Source: Methanofollis formosanus
GTDB lineage: Archaea; Halobacteriota; Methanomicrobia; Methanomicrobiales; Methanofollaceae
Assembly (NCBI RefSeq): GCF_019633745.1
Contig: NZ_CP037968.1
Location: 124,001 to 188,000 of the forward strand
Direction of reading: 5' to 3'
Length of the DNA: 64,000 nucleotides
Shown in pieces: positions 32,425 to 58,475 of the stretch; the stretch's first letter is position 1, and every line of letters starts with the position of its first letter. Under the pieces are notes generated by a model, which did no database searches, was not told the DNA's origin, and worked only from the letters and a program-made list of their open reading frames with translations. The position numbers were made by a program, and so were the translations under genes.

Positions 32425-32436
32425 GGCCCCCTCCAC

Positions 32437-34808: not shown

Positions 34809-34820
34809 TATTCCTCCTTT

Positions 34821-39679: not shown

Positions 39680-41422
39680 TTACTCCTCTATAAACTCATC
39701 AAGAGTTAAGTTTACCTGCGGAATAGCAATTGATACCTTATGCATCATATCTCCGATTCCTTTTGCTTTTAAAAATACAAATCTATCATCTATGATATGA
39801 CTGAGAACATCACGATACTGTGCCCCCGCAATGACAAGTATTGTATCATAGTTTTTCAGGATAGGCTTGAGACCTTCTTCTACTGAGGGACGAATATTAT
39901 CAACGTCTACCCTGGTTCTCAATACTTTTTCGTACGTGGATATCTGATCATCAGGTTTTAATAAAGCATATTTTGCAGAGATAATCCTGTAATCGTATCC
40001 CATTCTTTCACAATACTCCCGCACTTTCGTGAAAAGTGTCCCAGTATACAAATCTTTGGCAGCAATTGTTCTATATTCCTCGATTTCACACTTATTCTTT
40101 GTACATCCAGTGATTACAAGGACAGACTGGTTTTTCGAGAAACCATCAAGTGTCTCAATATCCTTCCCCAGGTACGTTCGATCCCACTGACTCTCATTAT
40201 TGAGCAACGAATAGAATGATATTGTATTATGGAAACCTCTTCTACGGTTGCGGTTGTTCCCTCTGAAGACGATCGTTTCAATCCCATTTTTCTGGCATAT
40301 CGGACAAGGACACTTCTTCCAGGGTTGATCTCGAAGGGTACGTCGATAATACTCGAGTAGCTCTAGCTTTCCATCATTAACAATAATAAACGTCTCCAAA
40401 ACGTCCATTACATCTTCAAGGATCATTTCGCCACGATCATACGCACGAAGGGCACGGAGACATGCTTGTTCCAGTCCTAGGGTCTTTCTTTGTCCCTCAG
40501 ATTCTTGATTTTTCGAAGATTTATCTTGGGGAACACGTATCGCAGCATATCCTCTCTGTTCTTGGGTGATATAGTTCATCTGACTCGAAGCAGAACTAAG
40601 CCATGCGCGTCTCAGATATGATGCGGAGTCAAAGGCTACGTTTACACCTAGATCTTCCAGTTCTTTCAGTCTGAAAAACAAGTTCGGTCGAGCCACTCCA
40701 AAGAAGTGAAGATATTCCGGTGTTTTATTAGTTTCTTTTATGTCGGCGATGATACGGTCAATCAATGTGACTATTTCAGATGTCTGCGACCGCACGAGGC
40801 CGCCGATTGCCATGTGAGTAATACCGTATTCAAGGAACTTATGGTACATCCTGAGGTAATCATTAATCTCATATCCCTGGACAGATACAAGAAGTTGAAA
40901 ATCATCACGATATTTTTTCTTCCATTCATCGAAGGCTGCTAAACCATTCTGGAATGTGATCTTCATTCGCTCGTCTTTTTTTTCTTTAAATGCTTCTACG
41001 ACGAGATGATCGATACTGACACCATAGTTAAAGCCTAATTCTGAATATATCTCCAGGATATTAGAAGTCTGATATGGCGGAACCTCTTCATTGATATATG
41101 AAAATGCCCCACAGTCAGCCATAATTGGAAATGAATCCGGCAGTCCGAAAAATTGGTGGATTCCTTTTTCTTTTATTGCTGCATATTTCTTCTTATTCTC
41201 TTGAGCTGTGGCTACCGATACCAATACCCCGTCAAAGGGAACATTCTCCACTCCGAGAAGATCCCACATGTACGCATCATTGTTTGGGTCTTCGCGGTGA
41301 AGATTTGAATGAGTATCAGTGAGAAAGTCATATTCGGGATCGACCCGGTCGTCCCAGTCAGGAATAAAGTACCGCATGCTCTTCTTATTATGTGTTGCTA
41401 GTCTGGTTAATACTTTAGACAT
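39680..41422 (-). CDS. dpdA: DpdA-type DNA guanine transglycosylase with C-terminal DUF6884-like domain
   Basis: 580 aa. DpdA enzymes exchange guanine in DNA for a 7-deazaguanine such as preQ0. The N-terminus (MRYFIPDWDDRVDPEYDF, then DGVLVSVA) matches bacterial DpdA as I know it. TGT active-site positions are kept: D103 in MADCGAFSY, D138 in GVSIDHLV, Q182 in VSVQGYE, G207-G208 in AIGGLV, and nucleophile D265 in AFDSASYL. Zinc ligands C371, C373, C376 and H398. Residues ~434-570 are an extra domain (VITGCTKNKCE, KDLYTGTLF, IISAKYALLKPDDQI) of the DUF6884 type. Divergent from the 41498 operon across a 75-bp gap with a palindrome. Confidence 0.88.
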   Translation of the reverse strand: MSKVLTRLATHNKKSMRYFIPDWDDRVDPEYDFLTDTHSNLHREDPNNDAYMWDLLGVENVPFDGVLVSVATAQENKKKYAAIKEKGIHQFFGLPDSFPIMADCGAFSYINEEVPPYQTSNILEIYSELGFNYGVSIDHLVVEAFKEKKDERMKITFQNGLAAFDEWKKKYRDDFQLLVSVQGYEINDYLRMYHKFLEYGITHMAIGGLVRSQTSEIVTLIDRIIADIKETNKTPEYLHFFGVARPNLFFRLKELEDLGVNVAFDSASYLRRAWLSSASSQMNYITQEQRGYAAIRVPQDKSSKNQESEGQRKTLGLEQACLRALRAYDRGEMILEDVMDVLETFIIVNDGKLELLEYYRRTLRDQPWKKCPCPICQKNGIETIVFRGNNRNRRRGFHNTISFYSLLNNESQWDRTYLGKDIETLDGFSKNQSVLVITGCTKNKCEIEEYRTIAAKDLYTGTLFTKVREYCERMGYDYRIISAKYALLKPDDQISTYEKVLRTRVDVDNIRPSVEEGLKPILKNYDTILVIAGAQYRDVLSHIIDDRFVFLKAKGIGDMMHKVSIAIPQVNLTLDEFIEE

Positions 41423-41497: not shown

Positions 41498-42304
41498 ATG
41501 CGTCGATCAAATGCTGATCCGAATCGAATGATTCTTGCGATTCACTATATTGGAAAAAATGGTCCTATTTCCAAAGAAAAACTCTTTGATTATCTCACTC
41601 AGTTTTCTGACAAAGAAGAGTTCGAAAAGAAGGGGAAAAAATCTTTAGCTGGTGCGACAACCGATGTCCTCTACAACATAAGGGTTCTCCAGTTTGTTAC
41701 AGGAGATGATAAGAATCTGGTTCTAACATCTTCTCTCACCAATGATCATATCAATCTATATTCTGGAAAACAAGTGTATGCCGCCTATCTCAGTAATGAT
41801 AAAGAGGGTGCGTTGCTCATGCTGCAGACAAACGCACTCTATTATTCACCGGAGATCAGAGATCTAGCTGCATTCATATTCCGCAGAAAAAAACTATCCA
41901 AATCAGACATCGGCATGGAATATGACAGGAAGAATGTTTTCGGACACTCATTCAATCCTTTCACAATTGATACCTCGCTTGTGGAGTTGGAAAGACTTTC
42001 CCTCCTCGAAAAACACAAGATTGGAGAGACTGCTCCCTCATATATCATTGTAAATCTTCACAATCTGATTTTTGCTCAACTTCTCGTTGAGGAATACTGT
42101 GAATTAAAAGATAAAGATGGCACCGTCCCATTACGCTCGATGAAAGAGCGCTTTTCCCTTAAATATAACATGAACTACCCTGAATTTGATGAAAGATTTT
42201 CGATTCTGAAAAATTCACTTCTCCCAGACCTCATTGTCGGTGGAAGTTATGAAAAATTCTCAATCAACATGGATATTGCACAGGAGTTGAACCTCTATGA
42301 GTGA
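41498..42304 (+). CDS. Winged-helix-like protein of the first triad (DpdG-like position)
   Basis: 268 aa, not firmly recognised. The N-terminal 90 residues look like a winged helix (ISKEKLFDYLTQFSDKEEF; LYNIRVLQFV). The C-terminal 70 residues (VPLRSMKERFSLKYNMNYPEFDERFSILKNSLLPDLIVGGSY) share their plan with the 56602-57441 protein (VEIPKIREHVCEKLKIQRETFDKKFLDLY). Both precede an AAA ATPase and lie beside a transglycosylase. Size and position fit DpdG of bacterial dpd clusters, an inference. Its stop overlaps the next start by 8 bp, so it is tightly coupled to the ATPase. Confidence 0.7.
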   Translation: MRRSNADPNRMILAIHYIGKNGPISKEKLFDYLTQFSDKEEFEKKGKKSLAGATTDVLYNIRVLQFVTGDDKNLVLTSSLTNDHINLYSGKQVYAAYLSNDKEGALLMLQTNALYYSPEIRDLAAFIFRRKKLSKSDIGMEYDRKNVFGHSFNPFTIDTSLVELERLSLLEKHKIGETAPSYIIVNLHNLIFAQLLVEEYCELKDKDGTVPLRSMKERFSLKYNMNYPEFDERFSILKNSLLPDLIVGGSYEKFSINMDIAQELNLYE

Positions 42305-45300
42305 CCTTGACCTCTCAGACCTTGGACTGAATTCCAACCCCTTTGATACAATCATCGGAGACCAGGAATCCTCAAAAAAATACAGATTGTTCGGACGGGA
42401 AAACCAACTGCAAAAGGCGGAATTCTTCGTAAAAAGAGCCATAAAAGAACAAAGGCAGCAGCGTATGCTGGTGCGAGGAGAGTACGGCACAGGAAAGACT
42501 CATCACCTTCTGCGCCTTCAGGATGAGATTCGCTCGGGGGTCTATGGGGACGGTGCAATCGCGGTCTATCTAGGGAATCTCGGCATCAGTATCAGAAGGT
42601 TTTATGAGAAGTTCATAGAGTCATTTGGCCCATATGCTTCTGATTTTCAGGATACCCTCGCAGATCTCCCTCCCGTAGAACCAGATGACAGCATCGATCA
42701 ATCGTACAAAAAAGAGAGACTCCGTGACAACGTCATCGCCAACATAGAAGAGATTGTCGCCGCCTCCCAGTTAAAGGGTTACACGGGGATATTTCTCCTT
42801 ATCGATGAAGCAGAAGATATTGTTCAATCCAGTGACAATGATGAGATCCAGTACTTCGTCCAGACGTTACTTCATCTTGTCAACTATTTCTCAGGAACCC
42901 CTCTCCATTTCATTATGGGTTTCTCACGAGAGGCTCTTGCAAAAATTACTGTAGTTAATGGGACTGAAACTACTGAAAACAGACTTGGAGATGCATTAAT
43001 ACAGCGTTTTCAGAATAATGACGAAATCGTCCTTGGCTATCTCTCTGAAAAAGACGTGCTGGCCATGGTCCGCGACAGACTCAATAGCTCCAGAGTCACT
43101 CCCAATGATAGTCTCTATCCGCTTCACGAGGGCGTTGTAAATGTTGTTGCACGATTGACCGGGGGCCATCCCAGAGAGATCCTCTCTATCCTGAACAAAG
43201 GCCTCCTATATGCACAAAAAAGTGGAATAAAAGAGGTAGATGGTGGATGTATCCTTTGGGTTCTTGCGACCCACACCTCATTCTTTGATAAGGAGAATGT
43301 GGTCCTTGATATTGGTGCTCTCACCCGGATCACGACTGCAATTCGGGAGAGAGATGAAAATCTCTCTACAGATTTTGAGAGATTACAAGGGAAGTTGATC
43401 GGAGAAGAGGCCGAGATCTCTGTAGATGAATTCAACCGGGATTCGAATCCTGATATATTGACCCAACCGATTCAGGGGATTCGCGTTCTTGAGCGGAAAT
43501 TCAGTGAATATGGTGAGACAACATACGTCATCCATCAGGAGATTAAAAATGAGATCTTCAAGGGAAAAAGATACGACTCTGATATTGAACAAAACCTTGA
43601 TCGTGAATTGATCGAACTGATGCAGAATCCTGAACACTACCAAAGTCAATTGACCAAAGGACTCTGGACTCTGATGCAAAATGAATGGATGGCCGAATAT
43701 AAAACAGATACTTCATGTAGCTCCTATGAAGTAATTGTTGGGAATGTACGTGTGGAGAACTCGCCGACACCGGTGAGTGTGGCGTTTGCAGCCTATAAGG
43801 GCAGAGAGTTCCCGCCTGAATTATATAACGGAATTCTTGATCTCCTTGATAAAAAAGATGCTACAGTTGGGTTTGTACTCTATGAAGGTTTTCACTTTGG
43901 CTCAGATCCAAACTATATAAAATTCAAAAATACCATCAGGAATACTGAAAATCAAAGATTTTTCGAAAATATCTGTTCAGTAGGAGTTCAGGAACTCTCT
44001 GATACCCGGGACACAATGATGGGGATGATCAAACTCCTTGGAAACAGAGAGATCGATGCCATCGAAGAAATTGATACAACTGGACTCTTTGAAACCATCG
44101 GAGCGGATAAGAAGATAACTGAACTGATCGAAGAAAAGGCGATCGCATTCCCTGAAGAAAATCGTCGAAAAACTATCGACTTCCTTGCATCGGAATCCCT
44201 GAAATCATTCTCAATAAAAGAATTAAATAAAAATCTGAACTTGAATTATATCGATAGAGCCTTCATGCAGGGTTTGCAGCATCAACACTTTGTTGAAACT
44301 GAGGGAAGCAGGTGGAAAATCGCCACACTGGACCAGAACCCCCCCTGGAAGTCGATATTTACATTTATTGGCAAAAAATCAAGGGCCACAGCTAGAGAGA
44401 TCTGGGAGTATATCGAGGACAACTATATTGTCCAGACCCCACCCGGAGACGAGATGCGGATGGTTTCCTGGTACCTCGAGATACTGCAAAAACAGAACAT
44501 GATCGCTTCAGAATCAGACCATGGCGAAATATTCCATAAACCAATGGACTTCTCAGGCCAGGTGAACCAGCACCTTGCAACGATTGAAACCGAGCTCGAA
44601 ACCTATCGTGAACTAGTACCTCTTGCCGAGAAGTTCCAGATCTCTGTATCTAATGACAAAAGTGCTATCGCACAATATTCATCAGACCTGGACTCTCTCC
44701 AGGATGAATTTGAATACAATGCACAAAACGTCGAAGAGTGTAAGAATCTCATTGAAACTATTATCGAAAAGCGAAAAAAACTGGATCGAGAAATAAAAAA
44801 CAAAAAAGAAGAATTCACCTCAGGTGTTGACAACAAGAATACCCAGGTAGAACAACTCCTCAAATTGATCAACAGGGGATGCAATGAAGGGTATATTTCT
44901 GAAATTGAGAAAGATGAATGGATCAAAACGCTGAATGATACCATTTCTGACATCGAAGAGGATCTCACATCAGAAGATTATACCCATCTTGTTATAGCAT
45001 CAAACGACATTGATGAACATATTAAGACATACATAAAGCAGATCGACGACAGAAAGAACAGTAAAGAACCTTGCATCGCCTATGCGCAAAGATACAGTAA
45101 CCTAAGCAGTACCTGTGAGAAGACCTTAGCCTCTATGGAAGAAGGGGGATATACAGCTACAGAAAAAAGGACCATTTTTAACGATCTTACTAAACAGTAC
45201 AAAGACAGATATAATCCACTCTTCAACGATGGTAAATTCAATGAAGCCAAAGAATGCATCAAGAAAATCTATACTGAGCTTCAGAATCTCAATCAGGATC

Positions 45301-45653
45301 TAAAGAATATTCATACCCAGTATACTAGTTACTCTAAGCAAATTGAAGAATATCGAACCATTTCTGGAGAAGATACAGGTCTCATCGATATCCTTAAAAA
45401 AGCACAAAATTTCCTTGATGAATGGAATTTTGCCAATGTCGAGATAGAACTAAGGAAATATAATGATCTTCGGACTTCGCGCAAAGAGGTCATCAAGACT
45501 CCTGAAGAAAAACTGTTAGATGATTACGGAGGGCAGATAAAAGTCCCATTCCAGGATATAAAAGGAGTTCATTCTATCGATGAAACTTTTGAGTATATTA
45601 GAAACCTCTATCAAAAGGGGAAAATCTCGGATATCGAGATCAGTTTCAAATAA
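42297..45653 (+). CDS. Large AAA ATPase with coiled coils (DpdH-like)
   Basis: 1118 aa. Starts with DLGLNSNPFDTI, then Walker A GEYGTGKTHH (61-70), Walker B IFLLIDEAED (165-174), and an Orc/Cdc6-like lid with GGHPREIL near residue 290. A middle domain (460-720) is unassigned. Residues ~740-1060 hold long charged coiled coils (ENAQNVEECKNLIETIIEKRKK). The C-terminus (FEYIRNLYQKGKISDIEISF) may dock a partner. Its N-domain is related to the 393-aa ATPase at 55424. A role as motor or DNA-sensing switch of the restriction arm (DpdH or Brx-type ATPases) is inferred. Confidence 0.78.
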   Translation: MSDLDLSDLGLNSNPFDTIIGDQESSKKYRLFGRENQLQKAEFFVKRAIKEQRQQRMLVRGEYGTGKTHHLLRLQDEIRSGVYGDGAIAVYLGNLGISIRRFYEKFIESFGPYASDFQDTLADLPPVEPDDSIDQSYKKERLRDNVIANIEEIVAASQLKGYTGIFLLIDEAEDIVQSSDNDEIQYFVQTLLHLVNYFSGTPLHFIMGFSREALAKITVVNGTETTENRLGDALIQRFQNNDEIVLGYLSEKDVLAMVRDRLNSSRVTPNDSLYPLHEGVVNVVARLTGGHPREILSILNKGLLYAQKSGIKEVDGGCILWVLATHTSFFDKENVVLDIGALTRITTAIRERDENLSTDFERLQGKLIGEEAEISVDEFNRDSNPDILTQPIQGIRVLERKFSEYGETTYVIHQEIKNEIFKGKRYDSDIEQNLDRELIELMQNPEHYQSQLTKGLWTLMQNEWMAEYKTDTSCSSYEVIVGNVRVENSPTPVSVAFAAYKGREFPPELYNGILDLLDKKDATVGFVLYEGFHFGSDPNYIKFKNTIRNTENQRFFENICSVGVQELSDTRDTMMGMIKLLGNREIDAIEEIDTTGLFETIGADKKITELIEEKAIAFPEENRRKTIDFLASESLKSFSIKELNKNLNLNYIDRAFMQGLQHQHFVETEGSRWKIATLDQNPPWKSIFTFIGKKSRATAREIWEYIEDNYIVQTPPGDEMRMVSWYLEILQKQNMIASESDHGEIFHKPMDFSGQVNQHLATIETELETYRELVPLAEKFQISVSNDKSAIAQYSSDLDSLQDEFEYNAQNVEECKNLIETIIEKRKKLDREIKNKKEEFTSGVDNKNTQVEQLLKLINRGCNEGYISEIEKDEWIKTLNDTISDIEEDLTSEDYTHLVIASNDIDEHIKTYIKQIDDRKNSKEPCIAYAQRYSNLSSTCEKTLASMEEGGYTATEKRTIFNDLTKQYKDRYNPLFNDGKFNEAKECIKKIYTELQNLNQDLKNIHTQYTSYSKQIEEYRTISGEDTGLIDILKKAQNFLDEWNFANVEIELRKYNDLRTSRKEVIKTPEEKLLDDYGGQIKVPFQDIKGVHSIDETFEYIRNLYQKGKISDIEISFK

Positions 45654-45665
45654 CGTGGTGATCCA

Positions 45666-48236
45666 ATGGACGGCGACATCCTTGAGGACTTTCATGCTTC
45701 CTGGGCTTCATTCTTCAGGAAGAATGACGAATCTCAGGAAAAAAAGGATATCCAATCCCTTAAATATATTCTTTTAAAGTACGTTGAAGATAGAAATGAG
45801 CGGGACATCAATAGAGGGAACTATGATTGTTACGTCCCGATCTGTGACATTCTTCATAATATCAAGGGAACAGACGGGTCTGTCAGGCTCACCTTTCTCG
45901 CCAACCGTTGCGGATTTGATAGTGGTTCTTGCAATGAGAAGGATCTGACAGAGATCTATCATGTGATCATTCTCCAGTGCCTCAGGGAAATGGTCAATGA
46001 TGGGATACTCCTTTATGTATACGATAAACAACGAGTACGGAGTCAGATTGCAGAACTCGTCCGATATTTTTCCTATTTGAAACAGCGTTTTGATGACGAT
46101 TATGAATCGTCACCCGGTCTGACGCAGATGGTAAAACTGCAGACCAAGAGTCGTAAAAGACCAAAACGTGATATACCACTCAAAGACGCACTCCAGACGG
46201 TCTTCAGCGTCAAAGATGAAGTACGGTTGAATGAATCCATCCAGGGCGCTATTCAGGACGGAACATATAAAGAGGCGTTCAAGTGGCTCCGTTTGATGAT
46301 CAGGAGTAACTTTAAAAATAATCCTTCCGATATTTACCTTTCCCGGTTCCAGGTCGAAGGATTCAGAGAGATCTTGAAAGCAGCTATATCGAAGGATTAT
46401 TCATCCGACGATCTCTCATATATCATCCAGTCCAGTACCGGTTCTGGAAAAACCGAGACTTTTCTCTTTCCGATTTTGCTCTATACGTTACTGATGAGCA
46501 AGAAATCAGGCACAAAAGCACTGCTCCTCTACCCGCGGATCGATCTCTGTAATGATCAGGTTCAGCGCCTCCTCCGGTATGTTACAATCATCAATGATTC
46601 TGGACTGCTTGGGAAAAAAGGGATTAAAATTGGCATTCATCACAGTAGGACAGAGGAACTTTCGCTCGCATGTCCATATGATGGATGCACCGGCAAACTG
46701 ATCAAACAGGGTGATGACCGGTTTTTCCGATGTGACCATAACACTGACCATCTCATTAGTTATATTGTCGATAAAACCAAACAGGCTGACATTATCATCT
46801 CAACGCCGGACTCTATACACCGGAGATTGATGGATCAATATGGAAAAAAGAATATCTGGGACGTTAAAGGGACTTTTCCGAAATTTATCGTCTTTGACGA
46901 GGCCCACATTTATTCAAACCAGTCAGGGATGCATGTCGCAAATATCGTACAGAGACTCAGGCATAAGATCAGATCGAAGACGTCATCAGAACCGATATTC
47001 ATTGCATCAAGTGCAACCGTTGGGGCACCTGAAACATTTGCCTGCCAACTCTTCTCGACCGACAGTGCCATGATCATCCGTCCTAGAGATGTAGACCTGG
47101 AGGAAACCGGGCGGGAATATGTGGTTTTTGTTAAAGCCACCAATCCCCGCAAGATCCTGATCCAAAAACCCGGGGAGGAGAAGGAGCGACTCACCATCGC
47201 TACAAACCTTTCAGCGATGATACAGATCGCCTTCTGTTTTTACCACACGATGCTTAAGATGGAAGGGAAGGATAGGATCATCGGATTCGTCGACTCCATT
47301 GATATCATCAAGCGCCTTGGAGACAAACTCTGCGATGCCGAACGGCGGAGGAGACTCTATCAGTTACGGACTCCAGATCAAAAGTTGGGGACGGCTCTGA
47401 ATCGTAACTGTCCTCATGTGGCCTGTGAGACTCTTCCACCAAATCCATACACCAATCGGTGCCGGGCCTATCTCGACGGAGAGTGCTGGTGGACAATGAA
47501 CAACCATGACGCCTCTCCGATGGATATTCAGATCCACAAATCAGGGAACACCTGCAATTGCGAGAATACGGAGGTTGAAACCGACGATTGGGACATAATG
47601 ATCACCACCTCCTCGCTGGAAGTGGGGTTTGATCATCCGGCTATCATTGGAACATTCCAGTACAAGGCCCCGATGAATATCCCAGGATTTGTGCAGAGGA
47701 TCGGACGGGGTGGGCGTTCCCCTTCGGATATGCCTGTCTCCGTCGTTGTGCTTGGATCACACCCCCTCGATACGTTTTACTTCCACCACACCTCGCTTCT
47801 GACAAATCCTGGATCTGATAAACTGGAAATTCCCATCGATCCCGGGAACATGTATATCAAAACCATGCATGTGGTTTCGTTCATCTATGACTATATCAGT
47901 AATCTCTATAAAGATAAGTTATTCCGGTCTCATTACTATAATCTCGATGTGAATGAGACGCTCCAGGCGATTAAGGATGATAAAGACCACATAATTAGAG
48001 ACCACATCATCAGAGAGGTAATAGAAACATTTCAAATCAGCCAAACTGATGCCAACCAGATCCTTGAGTCTCTCTGTGAATATTATCAATCTTTGCTTGA
48101 ACCCATCGAACCTGGACTTGAAGACAGGTCGTTTATCGATCTCTGCCGTTACGACAGAGAGAATCAGGGGCGAGGCATTGAAGAGATCAAAAACGATATT
48201 CTCAGGACAATAGTTCGACTGGAGGGGAAAATATGA
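45666..48236 (+). CDS. DEAH-box helicase, first part of a DpdJ/DrmA-like pair
   Basis: 856 aa superfamily 2 helicase. Walker A STGSGKTET (about 257-265), FIVFDEAHIYSN (DEAH about 411), SSATVGAP, and motif VI FVQRIGRGGRSP (near 677). A Cys insertion between motifs I and II (CPYDGCTGKLI, FFRCDHNTDH) suggests zinc. The closest layouts I know are DrmA of DISARM, DpdJ of dpd clusters and MrfA-like helicases, all with a DUF1998 domain in cis or in trans. Here DUF1998 is in the next gene, which overlaps by 4 bp. Expected to translocate on DNA and drive restriction or unwinding. Confidence 0.85.
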   Translation: MDGDILEDFHASWASFFRKNDESQEKKDIQSLKYILLKYVEDRNERDINRGNYDCYVPICDILHNIKGTDGSVRLTFLANRCGFDSGSCNEKDLTEIYHVIILQCLREMVNDGILLYVYDKQRVRSQIAELVRYFSYLKQRFDDDYESSPGLTQMVKLQTKSRKRPKRDIPLKDALQTVFSVKDEVRLNESIQGAIQDGTYKEAFKWLRLMIRSNFKNNPSDIYLSRFQVEGFREILKAAISKDYSSDDLSYIIQSSTGSGKTETFLFPILLYTLLMSKKSGTKALLLYPRIDLCNDQVQRLLRYVTIINDSGLLGKKGIKIGIHHSRTEELSLACPYDGCTGKLIKQGDDRFFRCDHNTDHLISYIVDKTKQADIIISTPDSIHRRLMDQYGKKNIWDVKGTFPKFIVFDEAHIYSNQSGMHVANIVQRLRHKIRSKTSSEPIFIASSATVGAPETFACQLFSTDSAMIIRPRDVDLEETGREYVVFVKATNPRKILIQKPGEEKERLTIATNLSAMIQIAFCFYHTMLKMEGKDRIIGFVDSIDIIKRLGDKLCDAERRRRLYQLRTPDQKLGTALNRNCPHVACETLPPNPYTNRCRAYLDGECWWTMNNHDASPMDIQIHKSGNTCNCENTEVETDDWDIMITTSSLEVGFDHPAIIGTFQYKAPMNIPGFVQRIGRGGRSPSDMPVSVVVLGSHPLDTFYFHHTSLLTNPGSDKLEIPIDPGNMYIKTMHVVSFIYDYISNLYKDKLFRSHYYNLDVNETLQAIKDDKDHIIRDHIIREVIETFQISQTDANQILESLCEYYQSLLEPIEPGLEDRSFIDLCRYDRENQGRGIEEIKNDILRTIVRLEGKI

Positions 48237-50305
48237 ATCGAGAAGAAAAGATTGCCAGACTACGGGCGGCCCATAATTACTGGCAGAAATTCGGTTCTGG
48301 ACCTGGAAAATTCAATTATGCCTATATGCACCCCCCTGATCTCTTCAACCTGGATCCGGCAACGGTCAAGCCCTGTTGTGTTCCGGCGAATTTTATTCCA
48401 GAACGGGTTGGTGGAACGATCGCCATTGTTCAGCGCACAGAGGGAAGGCAACAGACGCTTGATGCCGAAGGTAAAGAGTTCATTTTGAGCAACTTTTTAC
48501 CGGGAGGCTACAAAAAACGATGGGGATTCAAACATTTCCGTGCAATCTGGCAACCGAGCAGTTGTGTACAGGGCGCCTCGAAGATCGAGCAGACGTTTGA
48601 CTGCAGAAAAGTCGTCGCATTGAATGAGATCTATTCTCAAGAAACCTTCTCACCTCTTGATCTTCCAACAGACCAGACGTCGATCTATTTCCCCGAAACC
48701 GTCTATGTCGAGGAGATTGAACCCCATGGCATATTCTATTGGGACGATACGATCCACCTGCTGACACAACGCCGTACCGAAGGTACCACCCATGAAGCCA
48801 AAAGAGATCCGATTTCTTCACCATTATGGGAGACCATACCTCTTTCGGTTCTCGATACAACAGGAGGGAGCGGAGACACCAACGCTGTAACTTTCCAGCA
48901 GGACTCTCTTCTGCAATCGGCAGCATACATTCCTGATTTTCGACTGGCACGCTGCTACTATGCAAACTGCCTTCAACTTTTCACCAACGGCCAATCCCTC
49001 ACCAGACTTATTCCATTCTACCATGATCAGGATGATCAATATGCCCTTATCGGTACAGAGCATATTTCCCAGGCTGTCATTTTCTCGATTGACCTCCGAC
49101 CACATCTTGAAAAGGTGATGACAGATGTGGCGTCACAACCAGTGTTACAGAACGATTTGAGGCTAGCCTATCTCGGCACGCTGTTACACTCATCTGTTCT
49201 CCAGAAAGAGGGACTGCTGGGGTCACTCTATGATGTGGACTGGTTCCTCAATTTTCTGTGTGGTGTGGATTATGTTCTCAAAGAAATGAACCCAGACCAT
49301 GATCTGGGTGCATTTTTCAGAAAGAATCTGGATGAACAGAAAAGAATAGTCTCGCAATTGATCCCCCAGGAGAGCGAGATTAGACTCCGACTCGCCGGGA
49401 TCACCCCTGAACATCGAGTTGAGATTATAGAGATCCTCGAAAAGCATCAGAGAAAACTACGTGGTCTTATTGAAGAGGCATTTAACGAGACCTCCTTTAG
49501 AGGATTCATTCAACAGGTTCTCTCACAGACTATTGAAAAGGCGATTCAGGTCTGGAGCCAACAGGTCTTCAGTATTGTTGGTGAGGGACTTACATTCTGG
49601 TCTGATTCCATGGATAATGGGCAACTGCATGTTTATGCCTATGACACTTACCAGGGGGGAACAGGGATCGCACGTGAATTTTATGCAAAAATACAAACTC
49701 TTGTCGCTGAACCTGCCGACAGCATCAATGATCAGATACGACAAGCCATCCTGTGCGATGTAGATGTAGGAGATGCAATAATCAGGTCGATATTTAAAAA
49801 ATACAATACGCATTTCCTCTCGGGGGTCTTTTTAGAGGATAAAGATCTGCAGGAACAGGTGGTCAACAATGCGCTTGATGATCTGGAAAAGAACAGGCAC
49901 ATATCACTCGACAACAAAAAACGAGACGATATTTGCACTTTTGTCAAGCTTGATCTTAAACGTTTTACCACCTCTGAGGATTTGATTGCATTCTATCGGG
50001 AACTTGTGCTCGGTTATGACAAAGTGAAGTCTGTCCTGAAGAGGACACCAAACAGCACTGACATGCTTCTCTACTGTTCCGCCCACCCGTTCTATGACCC
50101 TCGGGCCCTCCGGTTGTTTGAAGTATTCCGCACACGGCATAAAGGGGATCTTACCGAAATTTCCGCACGGGTCGATGAGATCATGCCTGTCTGCATAAAT
50201 GCCTGCCCGGAGTGCATCGATCTTGACAATCAGTATGGAATTACATCTGCTCGCTATGAACATCGTGATAAGCGCGTGCTCCTGAATCTACTGGACGTGA
50301 TCTGA
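48233..50305 (+). CDS. DUF1998-type zinc protein, partner of the DEAH helicase (DrmB/DpdJ-C-like)
   Basis: 690 aa. The C-terminal third has the DUF1998 hallmarks: LHVYAYDTYQGGTGIAREFY (near 470) and CINACPECIDLDNQYG (near 655), with extra Cys earlier (YYANCLQLF). The first part (MHPPDLFNLDPATVKPCCVPANFIP) resembles the zinc-ribbon start of DrmB proteins. The ATG overlaps the helicase stop (ATGA), consistent with a helicase-DUF1998 chain split in two. Such partners usually bind the helicase and a substrate DNA end. Strong operon context; exact role inferred. Confidence 0.8.
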   Translation: MNREEKIARLRAAHNYWQKFGSGPGKFNYAYMHPPDLFNLDPATVKPCCVPANFIPERVGGTIAIVQRTEGRQQTLDAEGKEFILSNFLPGGYKKRWGFKHFRAIWQPSSCVQGASKIEQTFDCRKVVALNEIYSQETFSPLDLPTDQTSIYFPETVYVEEIEPHGIFYWDDTIHLLTQRRTEGTTHEAKRDPISSPLWETIPLSVLDTTGGSGDTNAVTFQQDSLLQSAAYIPDFRLARCYYANCLQLFTNGQSLTRLIPFYHDQDDQYALIGTEHISQAVIFSIDLRPHLEKVMTDVASQPVLQNDLRLAYLGTLLHSSVLQKEGLLGSLYDVDWFLNFLCGVDYVLKEMNPDHDLGAFFRKNLDEQKRIVSQLIPQESEIRLRLAGITPEHRVEIIEILEKHQRKLRGLIEEAFNETSFRGFIQQVLSQTIEKAIQVWSQQVFSIVGEGLTFWSDSMDNGQLHVYAYDTYQGGTGIAREFYAKIQTLVAEPADSINDQIRQAILCDVDVGDAIIRSIFKKYNTHFLSGVFLEDKDLQEQVVNNALDDLEKNRHISLDNKKRDDICTFVKLDLKRFTTSEDLIAFYRELVLGYDKVKSVLKRTPNSTDMLLYCSAHPFYDPRALRLFEVFRTRHKGDLTEISARVDEIMPVCINACPECIDLDNQYGITSARYEHRDKRVLLNLLDVI

Positions 50306-53300
50306 TGACTGGAACATATGTTCCCTTTGATAAACTCGTGAAAGAACCAGAGGCATACAAAGAAGAATGGATCCAGAGTAGGGCACGTTTATCGTCACAG
50401 CCCTACCATTCAACAACTCAAGGTGGACCAAAGTATTTGCTGAATCTTGAGGTTCCTTCAGGACACCAACACGACATCAGAATTGCGATCTGGGAACATC
50501 CTCCCTCCTGGCTCCCCTACACCGAAACGTCATCGAAGCTTGTCTCAATTTTCTCAGGTGATGACGAAGAGCATAAAAAAATGTCTCATCTATTCAGTCA
50601 AGGTGAGGAGGTGTTCTTCGAGGGTTATCTAAAATGTTCTTCTGGTATCGTTTGGATAAATGTTGAACGGATTCTTATCGCTCATCCTTCCATCGCGATC
50701 GGGCCCAGAGAGATCATTGGTGCTCTTCATTGCCCGAGGATCTATTATCTTGAATATATCAAGAATACCATGGACAACGTCCTCAAAAGACCTGTGAAAC
50801 ATATCTCCCGAGGCAATGTTGTCCATAGTATCTGCGAACTACTCACTACATCAGGGGAGATCATTCATCTTTCTGAGATGAGAAGTGGAGAAAAAAATAG
50901 GATCTTACGTGAAATCGTAGAACATGAGACGAATACGACATTTCGAATGGATTCTGCTCTCCACCTCCTAGCAGGTACTCCCCTCGATAATGTCCAGAAA
51001 GACATATATTTTCATCTCAAAGATCTCACACAGGACACCGAGGTGGCAGATTTTTTCAGAGGCAAACCTGTCGCCACTGAACGGATGGTCAACCATCTCT
51101 ACGGATTTTCAGGTGTGATCGACTTTTTCGTGAATGGATCTGTTCCGGTAGAACTCAAAACTTCCTCGAATCTTCATGAAGAACACCTGATACAACTCAA
51201 GGTCTACCTCCTTGTGAGTTATCTGGACTCAGGCAATCGCATGGGATATCTCATGTTTTCAAAGTGTGTAAAATCAGGGAGTTCTGGTGAATATCGTCAC
51301 ATCCATCCTGTGGAGTTGACCGATGACGATATCGACACTATCCTGTACGCCCGTCACCGCGTCTTGGTCATGAGGAGGGGGATGCAACTTCCGTCTCCAC
51401 AAGGCATGGATTGTGATGAGTGCAGGTACCGGCATCCCTCTCCCTATTCTCTCCGAAAAATGTATCCAGCATGTTCATTTTACTGTCAGACCGAGCGATA
51501 CTGGGATTGCTATGCGTATGATGAAACTGGCAAGGTAACTGCATTATGCCCCCTTTTTGATGATTGCACACTGAAGTTCTCCTACTTCAACACGGAGATC
51601 ATCGATCATTGGAACAAGATCCGCAAGGCTGTCTCGGCAGAGAACGAAGAACTTGATCTTCTTTTCAGACAGGTCCGCAACCTCACTGATGAGACACTTC
51701 GGATGAGCGGTCAGAAAATTGACAGCCTGAAACTCACGAAACTATCAGATCAGGTCTGTGTCTTTGGATCAGATGAGGCTCTCCCGTGCCTCGACTGTAT
51801 TCCCGGCGAACGAGTTAATATATCCACAGAGGATGGAAAACACACCTATTCTGGAACATTGACCCAGATCGGGCTCAATGATCTCCATGTTCTCTTCGGA
51901 GGCACTCCCTGTGAAGATTTCTTTACATCATCCGGATATGCTCTTTCCAAGGATTATTCTGAGAAATGGATCATGCGATATCTGCTCAGAGTGATCGACT
52001 ATACAGAGCGCAACATGCGGGAGATGAGACTCTCCTCCGGTTCCCGGAATAAAATTCTCGAAAAACGTGCAGTCAAAGAGTATAATTCAAAGGATGTAGC
52101 CGACGATCTCTTTAGAAAACGTCTGGTTGCACTCCATTCCCCATCCCAGACATCTGACGTCAGACGATGTGTAGAAGTTCTTGCACATCTCTCTCAAAAA
52201 TTCTCAATTCTTGTTGTTTTAAGGAATAGATCTGAAATAGAGGGTTTTATTGGACTTTATCCCAAGAAACACGATATTCTCATTGTTGATCGAGAAGAAG
52301 AGTTCCCTCCAGAACCCAGGGTCTGTGAGATCGGAAACAAAAATTCACCCAAAGATATTCAGGACAAAATTTCTTTGTCACGTTTGATAGTAACCGATAT
52401 CGGATTTCTTCAACGTTCTCATTTCTTTGAGTTTCTTTCAGACCCTGAAAGACGGCATTACTTTGATTATGTGTTTGCAACAGGCGCCGAACAATTTTTT
52501 GAGCCAGTATTCTACTATATCAAAAATCTCGGATATTCAACGCTTCTTATCGGCGATGCATTCAGAATGTCATATCCGGTGAGGAGTCGAGAGGCACGAA
52601 CACTCGGACTTGGAGAAAGACCCTTTGAACGACTCATCCTCTATGATTCATTTTTTGAGTCACAGGATTATGCAATCTACCACGAGCCCTTCAAGCGACT
52701 CCCGGGAAGTGTGATTCAAGCCTTCGATAAGATCGATTCGGAGATATCTTCTGAGCGGATCGATGGGAACCTCACATTCGTCGATGTAAAGGGACATGAG
52801 AAGGGAGTGTCTCGTGTCGACTGTCTCTATCAGATCTGCATGGGGAATGAACCGATGAAGTACCAGATGGTCATTGAACCAGACCGTATTCTGGATGCTA
52901 CAATGATAGAGGCACTCATTGAAAACCTTCCAAAATATTCCATCAAAGACTACAGCACTGGAAGTTCGTTCTCAGTTGGAGAGTGTTCATATACGGTTGT
53001 TCGGATTGATCCACTCGGGAACATGAATGCGTCGGATCCGAAGGAAAATGTCTCTCTTGTGATCCGCATTCCTATCTCATTGTCCGAAACTCTTCAAGAA
53101 CTGCTTTATTCAAACGAAGAGGAAGCAGATGAGGTCGTTGCGCTTCTGAAGGCGATGTCCACCGATGAGCGGGAAGAGACAGTTGTCATCACCCCATCTA
53201 TTTCTCAGGCCTCGCTTCTGAAGGAGAAGTTGTACACCAACAAGATCAGCGATGTGTCTGTATGGCTCCCCTTCCAGATCAGTGGCCGGAGTTTCCGTTC

Positions 53301-53493
53301 ATGCATTCTCTCTCTTGTGAGTGCGAACTCAGAACGGGTCATCAGATCCCCATTGACAGACCCTCGTCTGCTGTACACGATGTTCACCTCCGCCGAAGAG
53401 AATCTCATTGTTGTCGGCAATAAAGATACAATTGAACAGAATAGATTGATTGCAGAGATTATTTCTAAAAATTGCATTCAGGATGGGGTATAA
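50305..53493 (+). CDS. Cas4-like nuclease fused to an inactive SF1 helicase (Dna2-like)
   Basis: 1062 aa. Residues ~130-410 are a Fe-S PD-(D/E)XK nuclease: C143 in LHCPRIYYLEYI, H174 in GNVVHSICE, D273 in GVIDFF, E283 and K285 in PVELKTS, QLKVYLL, then CDECRYRH (370-373), C390 and C394. Residues ~600-1060 follow the Dna2/Upf1 helicase order but lack the ATPase residues: the P-loop position reads HSPSQTSDV (611-619), the DEAS box reads ATGAE, while LLIGDAFRMSYP, VVITPSISQA, ISGRSFRSCILSLVSAN and IVVGN stay recognisable. The nuclease looks active and the helicase does not. It starts in the last base of the previous stop. Confidence 0.8.
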   Translation: MTGTYVPFDKLVKEPEAYKEEWIQSRARLSSQPYHSTTQGGPKYLLNLEVPSGHQHDIRIAIWEHPPSWLPYTETSSKLVSIFSGDDEEHKKMSHLFSQGEEVFFEGYLKCSSGIVWINVERILIAHPSIAIGPREIIGALHCPRIYYLEYIKNTMDNVLKRPVKHISRGNVVHSICELLTTSGEIIHLSEMRSGEKNRILREIVEHETNTTFRMDSALHLLAGTPLDNVQKDIYFHLKDLTQDTEVADFFRGKPVATERMVNHLYGFSGVIDFFVNGSVPVELKTSSNLHEEHLIQLKVYLLVSYLDSGNRMGYLMFSKCVKSGSSGEYRHIHPVELTDDDIDTILYARHRVLVMRRGMQLPSPQGMDCDECRYRHPSPYSLRKMYPACSFYCQTERYWDCYAYDETGKVTALCPLFDDCTLKFSYFNTEIIDHWNKIRKAVSAENEELDLLFRQVRNLTDETLRMSGQKIDSLKLTKLSDQVCVFGSDEALPCLDCIPGERVNISTEDGKHTYSGTLTQIGLNDLHVLFGGTPCEDFFTSSGYALSKDYSEKWIMRYLLRVIDYTERNMREMRLSSGSRNKILEKRAVKEYNSKDVADDLFRKRLVALHSPSQTSDVRRCVEVLAHLSQKFSILVVLRNRSEIEGFIGLYPKKHDILIVDREEEFPPEPRVCEIGNKNSPKDIQDKISLSRLIVTDIGFLQRSHFFEFLSDPERRHYFDYVFATGAEQFFEPVFYYIKNLGYSTLLIGDAFRMSYPVRSREARTLGLGERPFERLILYDSFFESQDYAIYHEPFKRLPGSVIQAFDKIDSEISSERIDGNLTFVDVKGHEKGVSRVDCLYQICMGNEPMKYQMVIEPDRILDATMIEALIENLPKYSIKDYSTGSSFSVGECSYTVVRIDPLGNMNASDPKENVSLVIRIPISLSETLQELLYSNEEEADEVVALLKAMSTDEREETVVITPSISQASLLKEKLYTNKISDVSVWLPFQISGRSFRSCILSLVSANSERVIRSPLTDPRLLYTMFTSAEENLIVVGNKDTIEQNRLIAEIISKNCIQDGV

Positions 53494-53756: not shown

Positions 53757-55274
53757 GTGAATGTCTCTATCAGCGAACAGCAGATGAAAGATTTGATTGA
53801 TTCTCAGCAGGTAATCTCAAACGGTCGTCTTGTGAGTCATTTTAAATCCTTTGATCCAAACAGTTATCGGATTCTTGAGCGACCCCTTGTTCAACTGCTT
53901 ATTGATGATCTGATAGCAGGTTCGTGGACCGTTGAAGAGCTTGCATCAAAATATGGAATACAGAAACAAGATGTTAGAAAAATAGTCAATCCACTCATGG
54001 GCGATGTTGCAGCATTTGACGGTGGATATATCCCCCTTCGAACTGCTTACAATGATCCAAACGGGGGCCATAGGAAATATAGGTTTTCACTCATTCCTAT
54101 CCCTATTCGAGGCCGTATTTTTGACCCCACACTTGGATTTAGCCTCTTAAAATGGTCCGAGTTTCTAAATGATGAAGACAAATCCAGTACCACTCCATAT
54201 GAAATCCAAAAAGAAGCATTCTTTCAGAATTTAACCTTATATTGGGGGATTCCAGAAGATATAATTCTGAAACATTTCAATTCTGAAAAGACATTCTTTG
54301 TTGACACCTTATATGGACCCCTCCCTGTGCTCAGCGATCGTACACTCTATCAACAGATATGGGATAAATTTACAGATACAGCAGATATTTTGGCAAGAAA
54401 ATATGGCCATCGGAATTTAAAAACCGAATATCAATACTACCAGGCATTTTTGAGTCAAGGCCTGGGTTCGATACCTGATCTTCAGTATTGTGTTGTAAAT
54501 CTTTGCAATACAATGAATTATTGCAGATATCATGGCCTTGGGGCCGAGTATTCGCGATTTCAGAAAGTCAACAAGTGTCTCTTCAAAATGATCACTCTGA
54601 ATCTAGATGCGAGTTCACTTCCCCGAGCTAATTTTACACATAGAAAAACAGAGACGATAAGAAAAAGCAAAAATCTGAAATATCCAAAGAAAGTTCAGAA
54701 AAAAACGGTTCACAAGAAGTCAACCCCGACCAAAACATCAAAAAAATACATTCAAAACGAGTTAGTTCCAACTAAGAACTCAAATAAATATCACACAAAA
54801 GAAGACCCTGATTCAAAAATCAATTCAATCATCCCGTCTCTCCACTCCTCAGATCCTTTAGTCCAGATCAGAGCCATAAAAAAACTATCCCTCATGAAAA
54901 ACGATAAATCTCTGAGTTTATTGCACAAAGTCGCATTGAGATACACTCAGTCAGTCGCGGTCTGTGCAACCACTTCTATTAAATCGTTCCCTTTTTCCCG
55001 TACGTCCGAGGTACTTGCTGATATTCTGCAATCCACCCCACATCCTAAGGCCCGCGTAATTGCCGCACAGGCTTTGTCTGATCAGAACACTCCAGCGTCG
55101 ATCATGGCCCTTGAAAAGGGACTTTCAGATTCTAATGTTCTGGTTCGAGAGGAATGTGTTCGATCTTTGGGAGTGATTGGTAGTCCACAGGCTGTTGCGA
55201 TTCTTCAAACTCATCTTAATAAGGAACAAATGGAGATTGTTAGAGGGGAGATTGAGAGGATTCTGAACCAATAG
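53757..55274 (+). CDS. HEAT-repeat protein with basic linker
   Basis: 505 aa, GTG start at 53757. The N-terminal 280 residues are unassigned but include a helix-turn-helix-like segment (SWTVEELASKYGIQKQDVRKIV, about 59-80). A Lys/Thr-rich linker follows (295-355). Residues ~365-505 are HEAT-like repeats (SDPLVQIRAIKKLSLMKN; PKARVIAAQALSDQNTPASIMALEKGL; SNVLVREECVRSLGVIGSPQAVAIL). HEAT arrays bind protein or DNA. It closes the plus-strand operon and faces the second triad. No named family known to me. Confidence 0.75.
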   Translation: MNVSISEQQMKDLIDSQQVISNGRLVSHFKSFDPNSYRILERPLVQLLIDDLIAGSWTVEELASKYGIQKQDVRKIVNPLMGDVAAFDGGYIPLRTAYNDPNGGHRKYRFSLIPIPIRGRIFDPTLGFSLLKWSEFLNDEDKSSTTPYEIQKEAFFQNLTLYWGIPEDIILKHFNSEKTFFVDTLYGPLPVLSDRTLYQQIWDKFTDTADILARKYGHRNLKTEYQYYQAFLSQGLGSIPDLQYCVVNLCNTMNYCRYHGLGAEYSRFQKVNKCLFKMITLNLDASSLPRANFTHRKTETIRKSKNLKYPKKVQKKTVHKKSTPTKTSKKYIQNELVPTKNSNKYHTKEDPDSKINSIIPSLHSSDPLVQIRAIKKLSLMKNDKSLSLLHKVALRYTQSVAVCATTSIKSFPFSRTSEVLADILQSTPHPKARVIAAQALSDQNTPASIMALEKGLSDSNVLVREECVRSLGVIGSPQAVAILQTHLNKEQMEIVRGEIERILNQ

Positions 55275-55423: not shown

Positions 55424-56605
55424 TCATATCTCGTCTATACCTTCAAACACTCCCAGATCAACACACTTCATCTCATGCAAAAGAGCCTCATCGATCGCCT
55501 GACCACATATCGTAATGATCCGCCGCGCGTTCCCGTTCCCCTCTATGAATATCCTCTGGATACTTTCCTCTGTGAATGGCTCGATCGAATCGGAGGGGGC
55601 GGTTCTGCAGGTGTTGAGGTATTCTGTGACCATGTAGGTGACCGAATGTTTATCCAGCGGTTTTAAGTTGGCTTCTTTTGCGATACGATCTGAAAATGCA
55701 TGATATTCGGCAACAAGGGTTTCCCAGACCTCGGGTGCACACGCGATAATCACAGAGAGCCCTGTCGGATTGACATCGATCAAATGCCGGAGAGAATTAA
55801 GCATATTCTGTTTTGTCCGTGCCTGAAGCGTCTCGATAAATTCAAACTCGTCGATGAGCATGATCACAGGCGAGTGATTGATCTGCTCCAAGGTTGTTTT
55901 TAATGCAATAAATGCACGCTGGGCATGATTTGCAGTGATGTTCGAGGTCAGATGCAGTTCTCTCCGACGTGAATACTCAATCGCCTCTCCACTCAACCAC
56001 TCCCAGGATGTATACGCGTTTTCTTCATATGCAAGGTTCAAAAATGCCCGGGAAAAGTCGGGGTACTTTGTCAATTCAGAGAGGAGGACATAAGCCTGAG
56101 GAACGATATCTGAAAGCAGAACTTTCCCTCTCTCAACGGCTCGCCACCCCATTCCAGGCTCGATGTCTTCTTCGATCTTGCCATTTTTCGAGAGTTCTTC
56201 TGAAACTTTCGCGATATATTCCCTTGAACACTCTCGAAGATAGGTCGAACCAAGATCGTAGATGAAATCTCTATAGATATCCCAGAAAGACTCACCCGGT
56301 TGAGCAACATAACCCGTGACCGGTTTGAGGACTGAATTTTCACAAAATTGATCCCTGATCTGAGCCTGAATATATTTCAGTGTGTGGCTCTTCCCGTTGC
56401 CATAGGATCCTGTAAGGATAAGGTGATTTGACTGTCCAGTCGATATCACGGAAGAGAGTACATTGCTAACCTTGTCCATCACTTCTTGCTGGCCAACATA
56501 TATGTCCGGAACTTGCTCCGGTATTCCCGAATAGGGGAATGGATTCGCATTTAACCCAAAGATCGTGTAATCCTTCTTAGATGTGACAATATTCAAATTA
56601 TTCAT
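55424..56605 (-). CDS. AAA ATPase of the second triad
   Basis: 393 aa, Orc/Cdc6-like AAA fold. It opens with IFGLNANPFPYSGIPEQ, similar to the LNSNPFDTI opening of the 42297 ATPase. Walker A TGSYGNGKSHT (65-75), Walker B VIMLIDEFEFI (near 247), and GNARRIITICGQAIDEAL at the lid. It lacks the long middle and coiled-coil parts of the 42297 protein. Overlaps the upstream gene by 4 bp. Best read as the ATPase dedicated to the second transglycosylase, perhaps supplying the ATP step that DpdB gives in bacteria; that is inference. Confidence 0.82.
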   Translation of the reverse strand: MNNLNIVTSKKDYTIFGLNANPFPYSGIPEQVPDIYVGQQEVMDKVSNVLSSVISTGQSNHLILTGSYGNGKSHTLKYIQAQIRDQFCENSVLKPVTGYVAQPGESFWDIYRDFIYDLGSTYLRECSREYIAKVSEELSKNGKIEEDIEPGMGWRAVERGKVLLSDIVPQAYVLLSELTKYPDFSRAFLNLAYEENAYTSWEWLSGEAIEYSRRRELHLTSNITANHAQRAFIALKTTLEQINHSPVIMLIDEFEFIETLQARTKQNMLNSLRHLIDVNPTGLSVIIACAPEVWETLVAEYHAFSDRIAKEANLKPLDKHSVTYMVTEYLNTCRTAPSDSIEPFTEESIQRIFIEGNGNARRIITICGQAIDEALLHEMKCVDLGVFEGIDEI

Positions 56606-57441
56606 GATAAATCCCTCTTATGAATGGCAAGGTAATAGTACTGCCTTCTTCCGCACTCGATCCCGTTTAAATACTGATCAGAGGTGAGTTCCATCGTGAT
56701 TCTATCAGGCATCTCTGAAAAGTTGACCGACTTTATCTTCTTATCAGATTTTTTTGCGTGCGTTGTGATGGGTGCTCCAGATAATTCCAATCTTCCAATA
56801 TTCTTTACATAGAGGTCTAAAAATTTTTTATCGAATGTTTCTCTTTGAATTTTTAATTTTTCACATACGTGTTCCCTGATCTTCGGGATCTCAACATATC
56901 GCTGTTTTAGGTTTCCGACCCCTGATCGGTTGAGTTCGTCGTAGATGTTCAACAATGCCACGGTGAAGGACTCATTTGTGTCATCTATAGCATAGTAATG
57001 ATTGTTGAACACATTCTGCTGAATTGTTCCGACCCGTAATGTCAAGTCTGATATATATTGGAGAGTCGCTGAATTAAAGTTGAAATATTCATCTGAGATG
57101 AGGTTAGGGAGGTTGTTTAATTCGATCGGCCCATATTTCCTAACTCCATAATAGAATGTGGCATAGTGTGGATATCCCATCATTATCTGGTGAACAGTTC
57201 TCCAATCATCTTCTCTGATGGCCTGTACGAATTTTATTGTTGTGGCTGTTTTTTTGAAATGATCCTCATTCTGCAATATAAGGTCCATTCTAGCCATTTC
57301 CCGGAGGATCTCCTTTGATCGGTCCATTGAAACGCCCAAATGTTCCTGTAGTTGACTATATGATGTCTCCTGTTCTTGCACCACATAGAACGCTGTCTCG
57401 ACAACTTTGCTAAATGTTACAAGGCGCGCACTCTTCCTCAT
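56602..57441 (-). CDS. Winged-helix-like protein of the second triad
   Basis: 279 aa, no firm family. N-terminal winged-helix look (TSYSQLQEHLGVSMDRSKEILREMARMDLI, about 26-55). The C-terminal region IPKIREHVCEKLKIQRETFDKKFL parallels the 41498 protein. ATGA overlaps on both sides join it to the transglycosylase upstream and the ATPase downstream. It may choose the DNA sites to be modified or link the enzyme to the ATPase. Confidence 0.68.
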   Translation of the reverse strand: MRKSARLVTFSKVVETAFYVVQEQETSYSQLQEHLGVSMDRSKEILREMARMDLILQNEDHFKKTATTIKFVQAIREDDWRTVHQIMMGYPHYATFYYGVRKYGPIELNNLPNLISDEYFNFNSATLQYISDLTLRVGTIQQNVFNNHYYAIDDTNESFTVALLNIYDELNRSGVGNLKQRYVEIPKIREHVCEKLKIQRETFDKKFLDLYVKNIGRLELSGAPITTHAKKSDKKIKSVNFSEMPDRITMELTSDQYLNGIECGRRQYYYLAIHKRDLS

Positions 57442-58475
57442 ACCAGACCTCTCTTTTTTGCTTTAGCATATCGGAAGGCCTCGTACATTGCTGGACTGTT
57501 CATAAATCGTTTCTCTAGATACTGTTCAACCTCATTCTCTTCGATTGCCATTTTTAATTTCCGGATCTCATGTGTAATCATCCAGAGATTGTGCATTCCG
57601 ATGAGTTTTCTTTCAGAGCGTACTTCTTCATAGGGGTGTATGCTACAGATTGGACACGTACAGGGAAGGTACGTTGTCTCAGGAATATCTGAGAACTCTA
57701 TAGATCCGTTGCCGGGCATATAGTAGAGGCGTTTAGATCCAGCCTTGAGAAAAGCAGATGAATCAAATGTATCAGCCCCCATATAGACCATGAGTGGAAT
57801 CATTGTTGGACCCCCCAGGCCAAAAACATGCAGTGGAAGGTCACCAATTCGTTTTCTGACGGCATGTATGATGTCTATGATTGCATGATAGTCCGAACGT
57901 TTGGAAATGCATCCACCGATGGCAAAACCATCAAAGTTACCTCTTTTCTTTAGATAATCGATAGTATTCATCATCATTATAGGATCGTTCCCCTGTAATG
58001 ATGCATATATGAGCATATCTTCACGTTCTCGATTATCAAGAGCAATAAGTGCATTTTTAACAGATATTTTTACAGCATCAGAATATTTCTGATTATAGAT
58101 ACAATCTTTAGCAAATACCGGCAGATCCAGTGTCGCAGCAATATCGGCGCCAACATTCTCCTGAACTCTAAGCATTTCTATGGGATCAAGAGTCAGATCG
58201 TGATTCTTCTGTTGAAACCCTCCGCTATCGACAAAAAACACCCCATTATTTGAATATTTGTCATGAAGGCCGCCTTCACCCATTTTTTCATACAAAGGAC
58301 TGGAGTAGATAGAATACGCGTTGATCATCATTGTATTCATATCTGGAATCATTTCCCAGTATCTCGGCGTATTCCCCTCCCCTCCTTTTCCTCCGTTATG
58401 GACCGGAAAAAAGGCAGGTGTTTCAAGCTCTCTTGTTGCTGTATCAATAATTCTAATATTCGTCATGCTCGTCAT
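57438..58475 (-). CDS. Second TGT-superfamily transglycosylase (DpdA-like)
   Basis: 345 aa with a full catalytic set: D83 in FVDSGGFQ, D117 in ATLDLPV, Q161 in YASLQGND, G187-G188 in FAIGGCI, nucleophile D238 in TFDSSAF. Zinc ligands C272, C274, C277 and H295 (CTCPICS ... GMHNL). It lacks the C-terminal PUA and other domains of archaeal tRNA arcTGT, and its FDSSAF nucleophile segment is like FDSASY of the first enzyme, not the FDC type of tRNA enzymes. DNA is therefore the likelier substrate. First gene of the minus-strand triad, behind an operator-like palindrome. Confidence 0.82.
   Translation of the reverse strand: MTSMTNIRIIDTATRELETPAFFPVHNGGKGGEGNTPRYWEMIPDMNTMMINAYSIYSSPLYEKMGEGGLHDKYSNNGVFFVDSGGFQQKNHDLTLDPIEMLRVQENVGADIAATLDLPVFAKDCIYNQKYSDAVKISVKNALIALDNREREDMLIYASLQGNDPIMMMNTIDYLKKRGNFDGFAIGGCISKRSDYHAIIDIIHAVRKRIGDLPLHVFGLGGPTMIPLMVYMGADTFDSSAFLKAGSKRLYYMPGNGSIEFSDIPETTYLPCTCPICSIHPYEEVRSERKLIGMHNLWMITHEIRKLKMAIEENEVEQYLEKRFMNSPAMYEAFRYAKAKKRGLV

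Follow-up and report, generated by a model that had tools for sequence, protein, structure and literature searches.

A conserved Dna2-like nuclease–pseudohelicase encoded in a Dpd-like island of Methanofollis formosanus

Introduction

Why would a nuclease with an intact active site keep a helicase fold that has lost its ATPase motifs? The question is raised by an open reading frame at 50305..53493 (+) in a 64,000-nucleotide stretch of the Methanofollis formosanus genome (the window, to which all coordinates refer unless another locus is named). The ORF list together with Pfam, PDB profile and Foldseek searches identifies the product as a Dna2-like nuclease–pseudohelicase of 1062 aa, with an ATG start and zero internal stops. 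Here we describe its two halves, the operon and the island in which it is encoded, and the role that it probably plays there.

The nuclease half

The N-terminal half contains a Cas4/RecB-type PD-(D/E)XK nuclease domain with a cysteine cluster, covering approximately residues 134–424 (50704..51576, +). Pfam matches are PDDEXK_1 (E 1.2e-8) and Cas_Cas4 (2.5e-5, above the Cas_Cas4 cut-off). We aligned 14 full-length homologues, the window protein counted: three from Methanomicrobiales (with relatives 40–80% identical to the window protein), ten from Haloarchaea (20–25%) and one from a planctomycete of the Pirellulaceae (19%). The active site (D273, E283, K285, Q297 and Y301; 51121..51207, +) is kept in 14/14. 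D273, K285, Q297 and Y301 are invariant, and residue 283 is Glu in the methanogens and Asp in the other homologues. H174 is retained in 13 of the 14 and is changed in the planctomycete protein, in which the nuclease D, D-x-K, Q and Y all align, so that the nuclease residues are present there too. C143 (50731..50733, +), the N-terminal cysteine of a putative Fe–S cluster, is found in 14/14 homologues and in 7/7 intact Dna2-like proteins. Seven more cysteines (C370, C373, C390, C394, C402, C415 and C421; 51412..51567, +) are likewise present in 14/14, giving eight invariant positions; the C370–C421 region has a pLDDT below 50 in the window and orthologue models, and no geometry can be read from it. 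The nuclease residues (D273, E283, K285 and Q297) and Fe–S cysteines that the first-pass annotation had reported as kept are thus present and conserved throughout the family, with D/E at 283.

Fold of the helicase half

The C-terminal half, approximately residues 470–1056 (51712..53472, +), is an inactivated SF1B helicase region. The SF1 helicase C-terminal domain AAA_12 matches at the end of the protein (E 1.4e-9), and DNA2 is the top PDB profile match (E 4e-9 with three sequences and 5e-11 with 14). The AAA_12 and PDDEXK_1 values and the rank of DNA2 exclude chance similarity. For the window protein itself, AlphaFold gives a poor model, with a pLDDT of 60, a pTM of 0.32 and low TM-scores; the top three Foldseek matches of this model are three Dna2 crystal structures, aligned over the full length (best 2.8e-22). 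The model of a haloarchaeal orthologue is better (71.8), and Dna2 again ranks first (5.4e-26). Superposition of the orthologue model on Upf1 (6ej5) with VIA-align gives Z 23.8 and an rmsd of 2.8 Å for 346 residues. The SF1 fold is therefore supported by the Foldseek ranking of Dna2 and by the alignment to Upf1, and the assignment of this half to the Dna2/Upf1 type, first made from motif order, agrees with the leading position of Dna2 in both profile and fold searches.

Loss of the ATPase motifs

To define the lost motifs, we used as the intact comparison set seven haloarchaeal Dna2-like proteins (L068–L072, L074 and L075); L073, translated in the wrong frame, was left out. The Walker A relic HSPSQTSDV (residues 611–619; 52135..52161, +) sits on HGPPGTGKT of these proteins. 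The motif II relic ATGAE (residues 725–729; 52477..52491, +) aligns to (V)DEAx, with TGAEQ on DEAxQ. The motif VI relic TSAE (53386..53397, +) has lost the Arg finger, which is present in 0/14 family members versus 7/7 Dna2-like proteins. In the PDB profile alignment, FDYVFATGAEQFFEP of the window protein lies on motif II of Dna2, and the motif VI stretch lies on Dna2 LTRAK. Neither the Walker lysine nor the acidic DE pair of motif II occurs in any of the 14 homologues. The Glu of DEAx is replaced by Gly in 13 of them, and the site as a whole reads as a conserved G-(A/G)-E. No glycine-rich loop appears under any alignment of the Walker region, where some haloarchaeal residues may be one position out of register. 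Motif III has lost its glutamine as well, with Arg in its place in 11/14; the motif IV Arg is also gone, and motif IV is gapped in the haloarchaeal homologues. The TPxxxQ/H stretch retains its Thr in 13/14 and its Pro in 14/14.

The earlier claim that both ATPase sites are lost, with HSPSQTSDV in place of Walker A and ATGAE in place of the DEAx box, is thus borne out at these positions; the decay is wider than had been described, since the motif III Gln, motif IV Arg and motif VI Arg have disappeared too. The Walker loss is shared by all 14 homologues, and none with an intact P-loop was found in the same operon position. Intact P-loops were seen only in separate Dna2-like families, namely the seven comparison proteins and a protein at 8096–11782 (−) of the window. 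The latter (1228 aa) has a RecB-like N-terminus followed by an intact SF1 helicase (GPPGTGKT, IIDEASQ) and is the in-window counterpart with live motor motifs.

Homologues, selection and transfer

A search of genome contigs with a nine-sequence query yielded 12 loci, and the same search with a three-sequence query found nothing. The planctomycete branch is very long in the tree, so a single origin of the family is not firm. Searches of IMG/VR and INPHARED for a phage or viral origin gave no match. The cassette protein is 99–100% identical in Halorientalis, Halorubrum, Haloarcula and Halovenus (L009, L048–L051), pointing to recent transfer between genera, in Halorientalis at least on a plasmid. 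Between the window gene and its 80% relative, dN/dS is 0.152 for the whole gene, 0.109 for the nuclease and 0.188 for the pseudohelicase; the last value indicates that the dead half is maintained by purifying selection.

An operon with a DpdJ/YprA-type helicase

The gene is preceded by four others on the same strand. A small conserved operon protein of 268 aa (41498..42304, +) has no family match, and a winged helix is suspected from reading its sequence; its identification as DpdG failed (hhalign 0.6%). It is followed by an AAA/ORC-like ATPase of 1118 aa (42297..45653, +; AAA_22 2.6e-8), which is conserved in the operon and for which identification as DpdH also failed (hhalign 17%). Next is a DEAH helicase of the YprA/DpdJ type with intact motifs (45666..48236, +; DEAD 5e-19). 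It matches PADLOC DpdJ (1.1e-62) and NCBIfam DpdJ (2.3e-58), the latter scoring 198 bits where the model requires 800; the gene is split. The other part is the MZB protein (48233..50305, +; MZB 4.8e-4), the C-terminal half of the DpdJ/YprA-type helicase, which matches the C-terminal half of the planctomycete DpdJ (L059) in hhalign at 99.4%. The MZB gene overlaps the nuclease–pseudohelicase gene by 1 base.

Gene order was compared by script in 23 sequence stretches. The order DEAH helicase, MZB protein, pseudohelicase–nuclease is found in every archaeal locus with upstream sequence, usually with 4-base overlaps. Two forms of the operon occur: upstream, one has the 1118 aa ATPase and the other a protein of about 360 aa. 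In the planctomycete, one fused DpdJ-like gene directly precedes the pseudohelicase gene, and the island carries DpdA, DpdB and DpdC. The first-pass annotation had assigned motor power to the DEAH helicase next door; this helicase does belong to the operon, but it lies two genes upstream with the MZB gene between. The operon context supports the DpdJ-type helicase as the partner of the nuclease–pseudohelicase. In a Caulobacter plasmid protein (L061, 6439–12747), an intact SF1 helicase is fused to a YprA/DpdJ-type helicase, which suggests that SF1 and YprA modules cooperate elsewhere.

A putative 7-deazaguanine (Dpd-like) island

A DpdA-type transglycosylase fused to DUF6884 is encoded at 39680..41422 (−), with matches to PADLOC DpdA (1e-89) and DUF6884 (3.8e-17). 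A second TGT, archaeosine-TGT-like and conserved in the islands, lies at 57438..58475 (−; TGT 2.3e-38), so that two transglycosylases share the window island. Adjoining the second TGT is a small protein of no clear family (56602..57441, −), conserved as part of a trio. A BrxD-like ATPase (55424..56605, −; BrxC_BrxD 7.4e-13) and, downstream of the pseudohelicase gene, a HEAT-repeat protein (53757..55274, +; HEAT_2 3.1e-18) complete the surroundings. Islands of the family usually include DpdA, preQ0 genes and additional TGTs. Six genomes or plasmids show no DpdA in the available flank; five of these have it elsewhere on what contig numbers and ranges indicate to be the contig of the pseudohelicase gene, and in the sixth the locus sits on a contig of 6.9 kb. 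The preQ0 genes are present in some haloarchaeal islands, including L009 and, by reading of ORFs, L042. No PLD nuclease (DpdK) is encoded in the window, and the closest PLDc_2 match of the genome lies at a distance of about 100 kb. Profile searches of the window ORFs for a second, ARMADA-like YprA helicase returned one DEAH/YprA-type helicase only; a second, weak YprA-helicase match occurs in L008 and L058. The methanogen island seems to mark its own DNA with a non-standard base.

Also in the window, a UvrD helicase is encoded beside a PD-(D/E)XK nuclease at 33600–37196 (−). A similar pair occurs in a TGT/DGQHR island of Scytonema (L060, 4613–7857), and reading of ORFs finds similar ones close to DpdA in L046 and L047, both related genomes; such pairs may recur as components of Dpd-like islands. 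Elsewhere in the window, a Type I N6-methyltransferase is paired with a short, specificity-like protein of 200 aa (30449–32436, −). A Fic protein (26919–28247, −) fits the SoFic defence model (1.8e-51), and a protein at 59939–60742 (−) may have a CARF domain (Card1 CARF E 8e-4, below the cut-off) together with a winged-helix-like tail.

Proposed role and alternatives

The 7-deazaguanine (Dpd-like) context suggests a likely role. We consider that the protein, descended from a Dna2-type helicase–nuclease, is probably the subunit that cuts DNA in a Dpd-like modification–restriction system of archaea. The same switched-off form is found in salt-loving archaea and in one bacterium, so it is likely to be a working restriction part and not a broken gene. 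The DpdJ/MZB helicase would be the motor, unwinding incoming DNA that is without the host 7-deazaguanine tag, and would pass single strands to the predicted Fe–S nuclease, which would cut them. The pseudohelicase, no longer moving, would hold the DNA or dock the nuclease on the DpdJ/MZB helicase. For Bad, a working Dna2-like enzyme, the Fe–S nuclease is reported to act independently of ATP (PMC7430649); thus, a dead motor need not abolish cutting. Against this reading, our literature search found no biochemistry for any family member, and in the cited sources restriction by Dpd clusters is documented solely as a drop in transformation or a replication block for unmodified DNA (PMC12707154; PMC6884629). 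A 2025 review notes that the restriction activity tied to 7-deazaguanine modification was not further explored (PMC12707154). With the restriction side of these systems barely explored, the conserved dead-motor nuclease is a concrete candidate effector.

It is possible, if rather improbable, that the pseudohelicase is instead an AddB-like reader of the strand fed by the motor, telling modified from unmodified guanine (or recognizing a sequence) and gating the nuclease. The two RecA folds of AddB serve as the Chi scanner beside an Fe–S nuclease (PMC4824097; PMC7430649), and the members of the present family are located in modification islands. Rather than drifting, the motif II site has also settled on a conserved G-(A/G)-E, which suggests that it took on a new function. 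However, AddB comes from the UvrD-type SF1A helicases and carries its nuclease at the C-terminus, whereas the present fold is SF1B and the nuclease is N-terminal. Slightly more speculative is the specific form of this idea, that the dead SF1B domain senses 7-deazaguanine in the strand threaded through it, as a self/non-self reader, and licenses the nuclease, as an AddB-like scanner that evolved independently for base modification.

The gapped motif IV of the haloarchaeal proteins and the operon coupling to the MZB protein would suit a domain that only docks proteins or stabilizes the fold and makes no contact with DNA. We regard this as unlikely, because the TPxxxQ/H stretch still has its TP and the core still superposes on Upf1 at 2.8 Å. 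The UvrD/PD-(D/E)XK pair counts as evidence against our main reading, since it could be the island effector instead, leaving the nuclease–pseudohelicase to serve modification or repair; its recurrence in the Scytonema island and near DpdA in two related genomes speaks for this. It is the pseudohelicase gene, though, that is locked to the DpdJ-type helicase at all loci with upstream sequence, and an effector role for the pair in its place seems very improbable. Finally, the absence of the ATPase motifs might mark a decaying gene with its helicase half in course of loss, but this pseudogene reading was dropped as scarcely credible, given a loss common to all 14 divergent homologues, a dN/dS of 0.19 in the dead half and no stops.

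Comparison with known systems

The probable nuclease subunit resembles Dna2 and bacterial Bad in joining an N-terminal Fe–S RecB-type nuclease, here with a predicted cluster, to a C-terminal SF1B fold (definition in PMC7430649). It differs in that the whole family is without Walker A, motif II, the motif III Gln and the motif VI Arg, and is encoded in a DNA-modification island. The Dna2-type cluster has four cysteines, whereas this family has four more invariant ones.

As regards the Dpd system, the window has DpdA and a DUF6884 domain in common with it, along with a candidate DpdJ-type helicase. In contrast, the candidate DpdJ is split into two genes, there is a second TGT, and the Dna2-like pseudohelicase–nuclease stands in place of the PLD nuclease DpdK. 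BRIGADE is an archaeal Dpd-like system of halophiles with a PLD or sometimes a PD-(D/E)xK nuclease, according to the part of its account available to us (Bell et al. 2025, PMC12458937). Both have a Dpd-branch YprA helicase within a Dpd-like island of an archaeon; that part of the account places BRIGADE in halophiles only, usually with two YprA helicases, whereas the window is from a methanogen with one, and it describes no dead SF1 domain. DISARM resembles the window in its DrmA–DrmB–DrmC arrangement of helicase, zinc-binding partner and nuclease as consecutive genes, but DrmC is a PLD nuclease and the modification is methylation. The TGT-containing system that Rakesh and Krishnan (2026) describe includes PglZ and HerA and differs from the window island. 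We found no published description of the nuclease–pseudohelicase family, and this variant of Dna2-type and Dpd-like machinery is apparently new to the literature.

Lastly, RecC has a catalytically dead SF1 fold that works beside an active helicase. AddB likewise combines a dead SF1 fold with an iron-staple nuclease beside an active helicase (PMC4824097). Both are of the UvrD type and not SF1B, the nuclease of AddB (SF1A) is C-terminal and not N-terminal, and the partner in the present family is an SF2 helicase of the YprA type. Besides AddB/RecC, the family seems to provide a second and independent instance in which an SF1 helicase has become a non-motor part of a helicase–nuclease machine.
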